The notes under the pieces are model-generated. The model was given only the letters and a program-made list of their open reading frames with translations. It searched no databases and was not told the DNA's origin. A stretch of DNA of 35,957 nt from Magnetococcales bacterium (GTDB lineage Bacteria > Pseudomonadota > Magnetococcia > Magnetococcales > JADGAQ01), in NCBI GenBank assembly GCA_015231925.1, contig JADGAQ010000018.1:1-35957 (forward strand), read 5' to 3'. Shown here in pieces: positions 3,015 through 35,957 of this stretch (position 1 is the first letter of the stretch; every line of letters starts with the position of its first letter). Both the position numbers and the translations under genes were made by a program.

Positions 3015-3039
3015 GGTTCAAATTCCCGTAAAAATCGCT

Positions 3040-3207
3040 CTGTTCAGGTATACGGGGGTCTGGGGGGGATTATCCCCCCCAGCGGGTCCAGGGCAGCGCC
3101 CTGGGACGTATCCTTTGCCGTTGACCTTCAACCCCATGGGGTCCAGGGGGTACCCCTGGGACGTTTCCTTTTGCCGTTGATACGGTCTCAGGATCCTGAA
3201 GAGTCAC
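3040..3207 (+). repeat. GC-rich mosaic intergenic repeat, copy B
   Basis: This copy begins with the same block as the window start (CTGTTCAGGTATACGGGGG). The G-run/ATTAT/C-run hairpin, the GGTCCAGGGC/GCCCTGGGAC palindrome, an ACCCCATGGGGT palindrome and a second AGGGGGTACCCCT palindrome follow. It ends TTGATACGGTCTCAGGATCCTGAAGAGTCAC. It fills the gap between the hisB start and the stop of the aminotransferase gene. It is compact, about 168 bases, because it has fewer tandem units than copy A. Confidence 0.85.
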
Positions 3208-7676: not shown

Positions 7677-8744
7677 ATGATTCCTGCGGCCCCTGAGGAG
7701 GATACCCCGGAACCGGTTCTCGACAGCATGAAAGAGCGTCTCAAGCGGCAGTGGGAGGGCTCCGAACAGGAGAACATCCTGGTCGAGGCCCCTCCCTTTC
7801 CCAAGGACATCATGCTGGAGCTGTCGAACGCCTGCAACCACGAGTGCCTTTTCTGCGCCAGTCAGTTCATGACCCGCAAGGTGGGGCGCATGGACAAGAC
7901 GCTGCTGGGCCGCCTGCTCGCGGAAGCCCGGCAACTCGGCACCACCGACGTGGGGTTTTATACCACCGGGGAACCTTTCGTCCACAAGGAGCTGGAGCAG
8001 TTCGTGGCCCAGGCACGGGATCTGGGATTCGGCTACATCTACATCTCGACCAACGGGGCCCTGGCCAGTCCGAAGCGACTGCAGGCCCTGGTCGAGGCCG
8101 GCATCCACAGCATCAAGTTCTCCATCAACGCCGCCACCCGTGAAACCTACCGCCTCATCCATGGCCGGGACGATTTCGATGCGGTGCTGCGCAACCTGCG
8201 CTTCATCAGCGAGCTGCGCCGGGGGCTTGACCGCAAACTTCGCCTGTTCATCACCTACATCGTCACCAACAAGAACAGTCACGAGGTGGAGCTGTTCAAA
8301 ACCCTCTTCGAACCGTTGGTCGATGAGCTGATGTTCTTCGACATGAAGAGCCAAAGCGGCCAGATGGTGCAATCCCTGGATGTGCTGGCCCCCTCCGCCG
8401 CAGCCGAACCCTTCTCCGGCGAACCCAACACCTGCACCATGCCCTTCAACCGGGTCCACATCTCCTGGGAGGGCTATCTGACCCTCTGCTGCATCGACTA
8501 TCAGAATTATCTGGCCGTAGCCGATTTGAACAAGATGTCCCTGGAAGAGGGCTGGCTCTCACCTGCTTTCCGGGAGTTGCGCCGCCGGCATCTCGAAAAG
8601 CGGCTGGAGGGCACCCTTTGCCACAACTGCCTCTACTCCCTGACCTCGCCGATTTCGCCGCTGGTGGAGGAACTGGCCAGCCCCTTCGACCTCTCCGCCT
8701 GGCAGGTTGGCGATAAAAAAGTCATTCCCCTTCAGGCCCAATAG
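7677..8744 (+). CDS. radical SAM enzyme with SPASM-like C-terminus
   Basis: The 355-residue product has the radical SAM cluster motif CNHECLFC, with Cys at about residues 53, 57 and 60 (CX3CX2C). A glycine-rich TTGEPFVHKEL segment and STNGALASPK, typical of SAM binding in this superfamily, follow. Late cysteines in NTCTMPF, TLCCID and LCHNC resemble a SPASM/twitch auxiliary cluster domain. Such enzymes catalyse radical dehydrogenation, epimerisation or C-C chemistry on sugars or peptides; the reaction here cannot be read from sequence. The start at 7677 is preferred because GTGGAG lies 6 bases upstream. A GTG at 7665 is in frame but is part of that ribosome site. It lies 36 bases after the ligase gene and is probably co-transcribed with it. 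Confidence 0.88.
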   Translation: MIPAAPEEDTPEPVLDSMKERLKRQWEGSEQENILVEAPPFPKDIMLELSNACNHECLFCASQFMTRKVGRMDKTLLGRLLAEARQLGTTDVGFYTTGEPFVHKELEQFVAQARDLGFGYIYISTNGALASPKRLQALVEAGIHSIKFSINAATRETYRLIHGRDDFDAVLRNLRFISELRRGLDRKLRLFITYIVTNKNSHEVELFKTLFEPLVDELMFFDMKSQSGQMVQSLDVLAPSAAAEPFSGEPNTCTMPFNRVHISWEGYLTLCCIDYQNYLAVADLNKMSLEEGWLSPAFRELRRRHLEKRLEGTLCHNCLYSLTSPISPLVEELASPFDLSAWQVGDKKVIPLQAQ

Positions 8745-8784
8745 ATCCCCTGGCCGACAACAAAATCAGGAAGATCGGCGGCAC

Positions 8785-10743
8785 ATGAAGAAAATCTTAT
8801 TATTCGAACATCTCCGCCACGTTCATAAACCTCTCATTCTGCTGTTGCAGCGCGCCGGTTGGGAGATGGCCTATTTCGGCTTCTCGGATCCCCCAAGCGA
8901 CAAAGCCATGCTGCGCTGGATCAAACAGCGGCGCATCGCCAACATTTTGCCCCTGCCCATGCCCCCGTCCCAACGTCTGGCGCTGCAGGCCACCGAAACC
9001 TGGGCGGCACAAAACCGGGATCACCCGGCGGTTCGCGCCATCACCGACTTCTATGAAAGCGCGGAAGGGATCCTGCTGATTCAACGCTGTCTGGCGGAAA
9101 CCCTGAAAAAATATTTCTTCATTCAGTATTACCTGCAAAACGATCCGGAAGGTCTGCTGCACGACAAGCAGGTCTATTTCCTGCCGGACACCTTTCCGGC
9201 TTCGCACCGTCTGGTCCGCTCCCTGGGTCTCGACGCCCCGGCGGAGTTGCCTCCGCTTTTGCCGGGATTCCGGCTGTGGGATCGTTTGTCGCGCCTGGTC
9301 TCCGCCCCCCTCGCCCTGCTCGCCAGGCTGCCCAGGCTTCTTGTGCTGACCCTCCTGGCCCTGTGGCAGGGCCTGCTGGCCCGTCTGGGAAAGCGCCCCC
9401 CCCCGGCCACCACCGGAATTTTCGGCATCACCCTGGCTTCGTTCCGGCAATTGCGATTCGAGGAAAACCGGCGTTACGACTACCTCATCGACGGTGAACA
9501 CATCAAAAAAGAGGAGGTGGTCTTTCTGGATGAAGTCGGCTTTCCGGAGGACTTCATTCGCAGCGAATGGCAGCAGGGCAACCGCATCGAGCCCTTTCTG
9601 CGCCCTCCCCGACTGGCGGACTTGCACCACCTGTCGCCACATCATGCCCTTCTGGGGGATGCGGCCCGCCTGCTGGCCCGGACCCTGACGGTACAACCCG
9701 GCTTTCTGGGTGAGGCCGTTCACACAGCGGTGGTCAACGCCGTGCTGGTGGTCTTTTCCGCCCGGAAGGTCCGCTTCGAAGTGCTGGTCTTTTCCAACAA
9801 GGAGTCCAAGGCGCAGATTGCCTGCAATCTGCTTTTCCATCGTCTGGGGGTCAAAACCGCCTGTTACCCTTACGCCATCGGCGGCACCTATCTCTATCAA
9901 CACGAGTCCGGCCAGGGGCTCTACGATGTGGCCGACATCTACTGGAGCTATCTCAATCCCCAGCTCTTTCTGACCCATACCCCGGCCATGGTGCGCTATT
10001 TCGGTGGAAAGCACCCCCATGGGGTGAAGCGTTTCAAGGCCATCGGCAACCTCTTTGCCAGCATGATTCTTTCGGTTGACCGGGCCAAGGCCCGTCACGA
10101 CTTCTTCCGGGAAAACCATCTGGAGGAGAGGGGTCAGAAGATCGTCGCGGTTTACGACACCACATACATCGACTGTGCCTACTGCCCGACCACCTACGAT
10201 ACCGGGCTGGCTTTCTACGAGGATTTCCACCGTCTGGCGCGACAACGCAGGGATCTGGTATTCATTTTCAAGCCTTCCAAGGGTAAAATCTGGTATACCG
10301 ATCCCAACATGGTCTATTCCAACCCCGAAAAGGGGCAGAAGCTGCTCGACTGTTTCGCCCGGCTGGACGCTTTGGAAAATGCCGTGTTTTTGCATCAGGA
10401 CCGGGATCCGACCTGGATTTCGGCGTTGGCCGATCTGGTCATCACCGATGGTTTCTCCTCTCCCACCTGTGATGCTCTGGCTGCGGGGAAAAGGGGGTTC
10501 TGGTACGATGCCACCGGGAATCATCGCGGTTTTCCGCTGGATGGGCTCGGATTGGTCCGGCATGGTTTCGGGGAGTTGGAAAAAGGGCTGGAGGAGGTGT
10601 TGAATATGGACGATGAGAGCTTCAGAGGACGTTTTCTCCAGGAGGGGCAGAGGGAGTATATTGATTCCTTCATGGATGGACTTGGCCTGGAGCGTTGCCG
10701 AGGAAGTTTGAGGGATTTTGCAAAGGGAGGTTTTGACTTTTAA
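8785..10743 (+). CDS. large unrecognised protein, possible GT-B/CDP-glycerol-transferase-like glycan enzyme
   Basis: I do not recognise this 652-residue protein with certainty. It starts MKKILLFEHLRHVHKPLILL, like the first Rossmann strand of GT-B transferases. A hydrophobic/amphipathic stretch at about residues 165-205 may bind membrane. The C-terminal third has VFIFKPSKGK and LADLVITDGFSS near residue 550 followed by CDALAAGKRGFWYDAT. These resemble the nucleotide-sugar half of TagB/TagF-like (CDP-glycerol glycerophosphotransferase) and capsule proteins. The start at 8785 has AGGAAG upstream. The final codons, from about 10731, lie inside the left arm of the AT-rich inverted repeat, and codon GC content drops over the last 150 bases, so the original C-terminus may have been altered. 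The cassette context suggests transfer of the product sugar. Confidence 0.7.
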   Translation: MKKILLFEHLRHVHKPLILLLQRAGWEMAYFGFSDPPSDKAMLRWIKQRRIANILPLPMPPSQRLALQATETWAAQNRDHPAVRAITDFYESAEGILLIQRCLAETLKKYFFIQYYLQNDPEGLLHDKQVYFLPDTFPASHRLVRSLGLDAPAELPPLLPGFRLWDRLSRLVSAPLALLARLPRLLVLTLLALWQGLLARLGKRPPPATTGIFGITLASFRQLRFEENRRYDYLIDGEHIKKEEVVFLDEVGFPEDFIRSEWQQGNRIEPFLRPPRLADLHHLSPHHALLGDAARLLARTLTVQPGFLGEAVHTAVVNAVLVVFSARKVRFEVLVFSNKESKAQIACNLLFHRLGVKTACYPYAIGGTYLYQHESGQGLYDVADIYWSYLNPQLFLTHTPAMVRYFGGKHPHGVKRFKAIGNLFASMILSVDRAKARHDFFRENHLEERGQKIVAVYDTTYIDCAYCPTTYDTGLAFYEDFHRLARQRRDLVFIFKPSKGKIWYTDPNMVYSNPEKGQKLLDCFARLDALENAVFLHQDRDPTWISALADLVITDGFSSPTCDALAAGKRGFWYDATGNHRGFPLDGLGLVRHGFGELEKGLEEVLNMDDESFRGRFLQEGQREYIDSFMDGLGLERCRGSLRDFAKGGFDF

Positions 10744-10898
10744 TATTTTATCTTTTAAGTATCAAAAAAAAGAAAATGTTTTGACTTTTTTATTTTTTAT
10801 ATAATTGATAAATATTTTTAAAAACACACAAGAAAACGTCAAAAGTCAAAACATTTTCTTTTTTTGATACTTAAAAGATAACATATTGAAAGTCAAAG
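10731..10898. repeat. long AT-rich inverted repeat
   Basis: Two arms of about 57 bases (10732-10788 and 10841-10898) are near-perfect inverted copies. They differ mainly in the A-run length (8 versus 7) and two or three bases near the outer ends. The outer and inner edge of each arm carries TTTGACTTT or its complement. The loop of about 52 bases is also AT-rich. GC content is far below the flanks. The left arm contains the stop codon of the upstream gene, and the right arm ends just before the ribosome site of the next. A related half-copy occurs at 32584-32640. It may act as a terminator or be a MITE-like insertion. Confidence 0.9.
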
Positions 10899-10911
10899 GA
10901 TGGAGTCGCCC

Positions 10912-11691
10912 GTGACCGATATCGAGATCTTCGACCGTTTCGCCCGCGACGCCGCCCTGGCCGCCGGGCAGGCCATTCTCTCGGTCTATCGGCAGGCCAT
11001 CCGGGTAGAGCATAAAACCGACGGCTCCCCCCTCACCGCCGCCGATCGCTCCGCCCACGACACCATCCACAGCCTGTTGAGCCCAAGCGGCCTGCCGGTG
11101 ATTTCGGAAGAGGGCGAAGTGGACGGTTTCACCAGCGAAGCCTACTGGCTGGTCGACCCCCTCGACGGCACCAAGGATTTCCTGGCCGGCAACGACGAAT
11201 TCACCGTCAACATCGCCCTGATGCGGGACAACCGCCCCCTGTGCGGCGCCCTTTACGCCCCCGCCCTCGACGAACTCTACCTGGGCCGAATCGGCCAGGG
11301 CGTCACCCGCATTGTGCGCGGGCACGAGGAGAGCGTTTCGCCTTCACCCCGCCTCGCCGTGCCGCGCATGGTCACCAGCCGCTTCCACGACGGCCCGGCC
11401 AGCCAGCGCTTCGCCGACCTCAACGCCATCACCAACCGGGTCCCCATCGGCTCCGCCCTCAAGTTCGGACGGCTGGCCTTCGGACAGGCCGAGGTCTACC
11501 CCCGCTTCGTGGGCACCTGCGAATGGGATACCGCCGCCGGACAAGCCATCCTCGAAGCCAGCGGTGGACGGATCATCTCGTTGGAAAGCGCCCAACCACT
11601 GACCTACGGCAAGGCCAAACGCCTCAACCCGGCCTTTCTGGCCTTCCGGGCCCCCTATCGCTTCGACGATTTCCGCCTCGAACCGCCATGA
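10912..11691 (+). CDS. cysQ: CysQ-like 3'(2'),5'-bisphosphate nucleotidase / inositol monophosphatase family
   Basis: The 259-residue product is a metal-dependent phosphatase of the inositol monophosphatase family. In the CysQ branch it removes phosphate from PAP, the by-product of sulfate activation and sulfotransfer. Motifs seen are EEGE, WLVDPLDGTKDF (metal Asp and Thr) and GTCEWDTAAGQAIL. A GTG at 10912 is chosen because GGATGGAG lies 6 bases upstream. An in-frame ATG at 10900 would add four residues but sits directly on AAAGG without spacing. The stop overlaps the next start as ATGA, coupling it to the hybrid kinase. Other phosphatase substrates, such as a sugar phosphate of the flanking clusters, cannot be excluded. 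Confidence 0.88.
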   Translation: MTDIEIFDRFARDAALAAGQAILSVYRQAIRVEHKTDGSPLTAADRSAHDTIHSLLSPSGLPVISEEGEVDGFTSEAYWLVDPLDGTKDFLAGNDEFTVNIALMRDNRPLCGALYAPALDELYLGRIGQGVTRIVRGHEESVSPSPRLAVPRMVTSRFHDGPASQRFADLNAITNRVPIGSALKFGRLAFGQAEVYPRFVGTCEWDTAAGQAILEASGGRIISLESAQPLTYGKAKRLNPAFLAFRAPYRFDDFRLEPP

Positions 11692-23153: not shown

Positions 23154-23550
<397 letters not shown>

Positions 23551-23569
23551 CCTCCCGGCCCTTTGGGGC

Positions 23570-32515: not shown

Positions 32516-32583
32516 GATTTTTATTCCTTGCGGGAGGGGGTAACTTTCGCAACAAAGCCAGTAAATATTATAAGGTTATGTAT

Positions 32584-32640
32584 TTCAATATTTTATCTTT
32601 TATTTATCAAAAAAATAAAATGTTCTATCCTTTGACTTTC
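32584..32640 (+). repeat. half-copy of the AT-rich repeat
   Basis: The segment (AATATTTTATCTTTT, then TTATCAAAAAAATAAAATGTT and TTTGACTTT) aligns with the left arm of the inverted repeat at 10731-10788, with a small insertion before TTTGACTTT and a few substitutions. No inverted partner is visible nearby. Two sites 22 kb apart point to a dispersed element. Confidence 0.65.
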
Positions 32641-32787
32641 TCATTCATTTTCATTTAGATCATCATGTTGCTTCGCCGTTTTACAATTGGCTCCCTTGGT
32701 AGAATAACGTCACGCCAGGAGTCTGTCGGCAACCATTATCGGCAGGACAAGCTGAAACCGGTCTGAAAGGATCTGCTGGGGAAGAAG

Positions 32788-35796: not shown

Positions 35797-35957
35797 GTAA
35801 CGATTCAGAACCCTGTACAGCACAGCATGACCGTGTCAACAGTAAAAGGAAAAGTCCCAGGGGTGCCCCCTGGACCCCATGGGGTTGGCACGTCAACAGC
35901 GAAAAGAAAAGTCCCAGGGCGCTGCCCTGGACCCGTCGGGGGGGATAATCCCCCCCG
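35797..35957 (-). repeat. GC-rich mosaic intergenic repeat, copy C (inverted, cut by window end)
   Basis: Its reverse complement carries the same ordered parts as copies A and B: the G-run/ATTAT/C-run hairpin at the very end, the GGTCCAGGGCAGCGCCCTGGGAC palindrome, ACCCCATGGGGT, the AGGGGGCACCCCT palindrome, then TTGACACGGTCA and GTTCTGAATCGTTAC. It begins about 20 bases upstream of the fdx start. Confidence 0.85.

Follow-up and report, generated by a model that had tools for sequence, protein, structure and literature searches.

An AT-rich intergenic palindrome in a Magnetococcales genome is one copy of a high-copy, probably MITE-like repeat family

The palindrome at positions 10732-10897 of a Magnetococcales contig (JADGAQ010000018.1, analysed over its whole 35,957 nucleotides and referred to here as the window) belongs to a non-coding family of palindromic repeats with well over a hundred copies in its genome, mostly in gaps behind genes. 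The family is probably lineage-specific and of the MITE kind. The repeat is probably non-autonomous and was probably once mobile. Repeats of this kind are already known; what is unusual is that conserved arms enclose an ever-changing centre. A literature search on Magnetococcales miniature inverted-repeat elements returned no papers, and our claim to novelty extends as far as that search.

The features of the palindrome and of a second family member in the window are listed in Table 1. Aligned with each other, the two arms are identical in 55 of 58 columns, with two mismatches and one one-base gap. The predicted RNA fold of the palindrome reaches -64.9 kcal/mol compared with -23.5 kcal/mol in shuffled sequences (z -12.8; none of 200 shuffles was as stable), and the DNA fold gives a z of -11.9. 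The long, near-perfect inverted repeat described in an earlier note on this DNA is thus real, as is its reach into the upstream gene, whose TAA occupies positions 10741-10743; on the other side, the possible ATG of the inositol monophosphatase family ORF lies 3 bases past the palindrome. Only this copy is so nearly symmetrical: among 71 sampled pairs, an inner stem shortened in both arms was seen here alone, compared with 11 pairs in which one arm is shortened and 59 in which neither is. The same note took TTTGACTTT to mark the edges. This sequence does border both arms on both sides, and these four arm borders account for four of its five matches in the window (mean in shuffles, 0.14), but it is not simply a terminus, since it stands at both ends of each arm and since, of 102 outer ends anchored in our sample, just 38 continue exactly as GTCAAA. 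An Rfam search of the whole window at the gathering score gave no match to the palindrome and found an RNase P RNA alone, of the bacterial class A, at positions 23154-23553.

Table 1. Coordinates of the palindrome, its neighbours and the second family member in the window
Feature	Position	Strand	Remarks
Left arm (A segment)	10732..10789	-	58 nt; runs TTTGACTTT...TTTGACTTTT
Core (loop), AT-rich	10790..10840	no strand	51 nt
Right arm (A segment)	10841..10897	+	57 nt; complementary to left arm
Family motif AACATTTTCTTTTTTTGATACTTAAAAG	10850-10877		inside right arm
Upstream ORF	8707..10743	+	678 aa; no Pfam match; TAA within left arm
Downstream ORF, inositol monophosphatase family	10900..11691	+	PF00459; alternative GTG at 10912
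Second family member, single D-A-C unit	32534..32693	+	160 bp; ends GAGG..../....GGCTC
A segment within the single unit	32583..32636	-	

The arm motif has 337 matches at up to three mismatches in the 4.51-Mb genome to which the window belongs (G000, a draft that is 97.4% complete), and the reversed motif has none; the whole element gives at least 89 matches on the two strands together, from the 40 of 299 candidates that were scored. The earlier note had listed a MITE among its readings, proposed a genome-wide search for the arm and held that a lack of other copies, with a conserved location in relatives, would speak for a fixed terminator and against a mobile element. As to copies, the opposite was obtained, and the MITE reading is supported both by the number of arms and by an arm-containing unit with terminal inverted repeats and direct repeats resembling target duplications. 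The family was characterised in stretches chosen for their copies and merged into 46, totalling 409 kb, so that the rates given for this sample are not genome-wide; gene positions come from a crude, purpose-written caller. The sample contains 165 arms. Mean GC content is 25% for arms and 20% for short cores, compared with 62% for coding DNA and 53% for other intergenic DNA, in agreement with the description of the palindrome as very AT-rich in a high-GC context. Copies of repeats were also seen at several contig ends of the genome (C53:1, C297:3392, C57:21549, and window positions 1 and 35957), indicating that repeats probably broke the assembly.

Arms are mostly arranged as pairs of a single orientation. 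In the sample, 71 of 73 cases of neighbouring arms less than 700 bp apart are -+ and two are ++; outside it, locus L124 carries two neighbouring - arms and L136 two overlapping - matches. For 23 of the 165 arms sampled, no partner facing them lies within 700 bp. The core between paired arms is short (23-79 bp) in 47 pairs and long (100-596 bp) in the other 24. Some cores contain a loop sequence, C, which is clear in 8 of the 71 pairs, and seven of these eight have D, an outer hairpin sequence found beside some arms, on one side. The idea that the cores descend by decay from a single ancestral loop was rejected, since a resemblance to C at p <= 0.05 was found in just 9 of the 47 short cores and since short cores, once 8 bases have been trimmed from either end, resemble one another no more than shuffled sequences do, whereas the arms exceed shuffles in this respect. 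Self-complementarity of the cores is slightly above that of shuffles (mean z -0.75; p <= 0.05 in 9 of 47), partly because their TTTT/AAAA ends are arm sequence. A gene cassette between distant arms was likewise discarded: in the sample, the sole -+ neighbours separated by 0.7-5 kb flank two ordinary-looking genes, between which no transposase was recognised by eye. At locus L084 (G000:C8, 9181-11242), two solo arms 1.95 kb apart surround two genes, one of them ATPase-like, which together recall, by eye, a two-gene defence pair.

The second family member in the window is a single D-A-C unit, and CCTTG is repeated close to both of its ends as a candidate target duplication. Seven of eight such units are 150-172 bp long, the other, at L136, being 227 bp with a second A match; their terminal inverted repeats are GAGNNANTTGCAAAAC-like. 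One of the eight, L128, has an A part too degraded for the profile to detect an A segment. Direct repeats of 5-8 bp lie near the ends of seven of the eight units, L136 being the exception (permutation p = 5e-5, with end windows anchored by hand, repeats displaced by as much as several bases from the presumed ends and two of the eight units added after their flanks had been seen). To judge from the sequence, direct repeats flanking single units in this way are the signature of an inserted MITE. For inverted pairs, of which 48 of 71 have recognisable outer ends, the mean longest string shared by the flanks is 4.38 bp compared with 4.06 bp for mismatched flanks (p = 0.018, uncorrected for the AT-rich composition that the flanks share), and strings of at least 6 bp are shared in 8 of 48 pairs where 3.9 would be expected. 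Candidates for the target-site duplications that the earlier note suggested looking for are seen at the single units, but the signal at inverted pairs is weak. All nine sampled matches to D lie within 400 bp of an arm, as do all matches to C (three and five for two probes). Genome-wide, the D motif has 29 matches at up to two mismatches, and an A arm was detectable at 17 of 20 newly fetched D-motif loci and not at three. Several pairs can be interpreted as a complete unit accompanied by a second arm. A search for a parental IS gave 20 exact matches to the end motif in the genome, none of which, by eye, bounds an element of IS length.

Within a pair, the left and right arms resemble each other no more than left and right arms combined at random, whether the 42 pairs with near-complete arms (p = 0.20) or all 71 (p = 0.22) are compared. 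This lack of likeness, together with the unpartnered arms and the pairs that resemble a complete unit with a second arm, would be compatible with a recombination of two solo elements, as had been suggested for the palindrome; the uniform orientation of almost all neighbouring pairs fits that suggestion less well. Variation within the arm is confined to few sites (31-fold overdispersion), and these are nearly unlinked, with a mean r2 of 0.016 and nine site pairs at p < 0.02. A second high-copy repeat, which we call repeat B, is GC-rich, about 184 bp long and ends in GTAACTATTCAG / CTGAACAGATAC. It occurs in the window at 1-131, 128-225, 3039-3206 and 35797-35957 and at many other loci, has 76 matches in the 409-kb sample and is often inserted within the AT-rich cores of the palindromes (19 of 24 long cores, none of 47 short ones); 21 of 40 matches to its centre have an A arm no more than 400 bp away. 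Overdispersion in repeat B is 5.9 (27 of the 76 matches used), compared with 5.4 in a subsample of arms of the same size. Since repeat B varies likewise, few-site, unlinked variation is no evidence of special selection on the arm, and a degenerate motif selected by the host was rejected because this unrelated repeat has the same pattern of variable sites.

Beyond its own genome, the family was sought across the order Magnetococcales in 40 relatives and then in 47, the 47 including no genome of the same taxonomic family. Strong matches were found in one other genome, G008, whose 13 are confined to contigs C153 and C253. G005, G031 and G034 in the search of 40 relatives, and G028 and G036 in that of 47 genomes, each gave one weak match (E 5e-5 to 9e-4). 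An exact-pattern scan of GTDB r220 contigs returned JADGAP010000044.1 alone (C253 of G008, bin nNGHbin13); the same kind of scan of IMG/VR gave no matches, nor did plasmid and phage searches. C153 carries pyrR and pyrB, and G008 has a second, divergent pair of these genes on C42. Because pyrB and pyrR of C153 duplicate those on C42, while their matches in G000 are distant (30% and 31% identity), C153 is probably mis-binned in G008; it possibly comes from the population of G000 itself. On the same contig (L074, 2868-3036), three + A segments stand in direct tandem with a period of 54 bp, between genes identified by eye as pyrB and pyrC, and an 8-bp tandem repeat, AGGATTAG, lies just ahead of them at 2833-2870.

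An unlikely alternative is that the host has selected the palindrome as a 3'-end element, that is, a bidirectional terminator or a hairpin for RNase III or other processing behind genes. On either strand, ATTTTCTTTTTTT comes after its inner stem GTTCTRTCCTTTGAC/GTCAAAGGAYAGAAC, T makes up at least 98% of each U-tract column from 22 to 28 (162-165 sampled arms per column), and the RNA hairpin is strong, as the folding z score given above attests. Placement points the same way, and it speaks for the MITE-like reading as well. Of 47 pairs on long stretches, 44 could be placed in a gap; 38 of these lie between co-directional, 5 between convergent and 1 between divergent genes, where 8.3 divergent cases would be expected from intergenic length (binomial p = 0.001) and 5.4 from gap count (p = 0.02); the median distance is 20.5 bp to the upstream stop and 48 bp to the downstream start, and 23 of the 38 co-directional pairs are closer to the stop (Wilcoxon p = 0.07). 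Like intrinsic terminators, the repeat thus lies near stop codons and has a T-run after its stem. Unlike them, it has a stem that is not GC-rich and a loop that is too long, with cores of 23-596 bp, and a terminator scan of positions 10600-11050 gave no sites. Moreover, the inner stem shows no covariation (0.831 observed, 0.848 after permutation; p = 0.97, 71 pairs), and a selected RNA stem was rejected for this reason. In two outer blocks, the compensatory-change test gave p = 0.09 and 0.08 (71 pairs; 0.22 overall), with two single columns at uncorrected p values of 0.006 and 0.044, and GU pairs are in no clear excess over AC pairs (53 and 40). Several copies sit, by eye, behind a GC-hairpin with a T-run (e.g. 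C24:16546, C97:1572, C81 and C128) and so already follow a terminator. The strong canonical terminator envisaged in the earlier note is not borne out by the scan, the covariation test or these copies, and a selected 3'-end element is further opposed by the variable-site pattern shared with repeat B and by the confinement of the family, among the genomes of the order searched, to its own genome and G008.

It is somewhat less probable that the arms form a REPIN-like population, in which paired inverted repeats with a variable spacer are spread in trans by a dedicated tyrosine transposase, RAYT. The inverted doublets, singlets, variable spacers and the three-arm tandem of L074 do recall the REP/BIME/REPIN organisation as set out in an excerpt of PMC3116915. 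However, PF01797 (Y1 transposase) has no match in G000, while 5 of 14 control genomes were positive, and a RAYT mobiliser was therefore rejected for this 97.4% complete draft. The arms, at about 57 bp, are also AT-rich and far longer than REP sequences, and the arm consensus lacks a visible GTAG tag, a feature of REPIN/RAYT systems; both REP size and tag are taken from PMC3733652. Very improbable is a putative cruciform or nucleoid-protein site (H-NS-like or an insulator) that is not a mobile repeat at all. The low GC content of arms and short cores within a background of 53-62% and the stable DNA fold would suit such a site, but the copy structure, the end duplications of single units and the nesting with other repeats point to dispersal.

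The reading as a MITE-like family, which we prefer, accords with known MITEs in that the family is short, non-coding, intergenic and present in high copy, and in that D-A-C units have terminal inverted repeats and 5-8-bp direct repeats. It is favoured also by the hundreds of dispersed arms, the nearly uniform orientation of inverted pairs, the scarcity of the family outside its own genome and the end of the upstream ORF inside the window copy. The family departs from known MITEs in that the commonest sampled form is an inverted A pair, usually without D/C ends, with a weak duplication signal and an unalignable core, and in that the parental IS was not seen. ERIC palindromes are about 100-200 bp long and intergenic, and their copies share the whole sequence. 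The present family resembles ERIC and RU-type palindromes of enterobacteria in size, palindromic structure and intergenic position, often between co-directional genes, but differs from ERIC in that mainly the arms are shared. We infer that a trans-acting transposase, which has since been lost or has diverged or is missing from the assembly, would have spread the MITE-like family, and that insertions would have survived where they were least harmful, downstream of stop codons and terminators and at a distance from promoters. The inverted pair, the form seen in this palindrome, is probably secondary, a dimer of two A segments which may have arisen when two units met tail to tail or by fold-back duplication at the inner hairpin, its core later drifting or being replaced. 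Each RNA copy would fold as a long hairpin, and effects on termination or RNA processing are taken to be incidental.

Several observations run against the MITE-like reading: the duplication signal at inverted pairs is weak at best, the end-motif search brought up no parental IS, and the two arms of a pair are not especially alike. In addition, the cores cannot be aligned while the arms can, which copying of whole elements does not predict. A further possibility, which we hold to be doubtful, is that spread or homogenisation acts on arms and not on whole elements. Two arms would then be gained separately at each locus, or fold-back copying would be combined with frequent conversion from a genome-wide pool, and the core between them would be renewed or left to drift. 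If true, this would explain the single orientation, the unlinked left and right arms, the near linkage equilibrium and the dissimilar cores, and would represent a mode of repeat-family evolution unlike the whole-unit copying of MITEs or REPINs.

There is also a practical caution, in that arms lie at contig ends and arm-bearing contigs turned up in another bin. With over three hundred palindrome arms of about 60 bp in one genome, and other repeat families nested around and within them, this family offers a natural test case for the spread, pairing and continued likeness of intergenic repeats in a genome where no mobiliser is visible.
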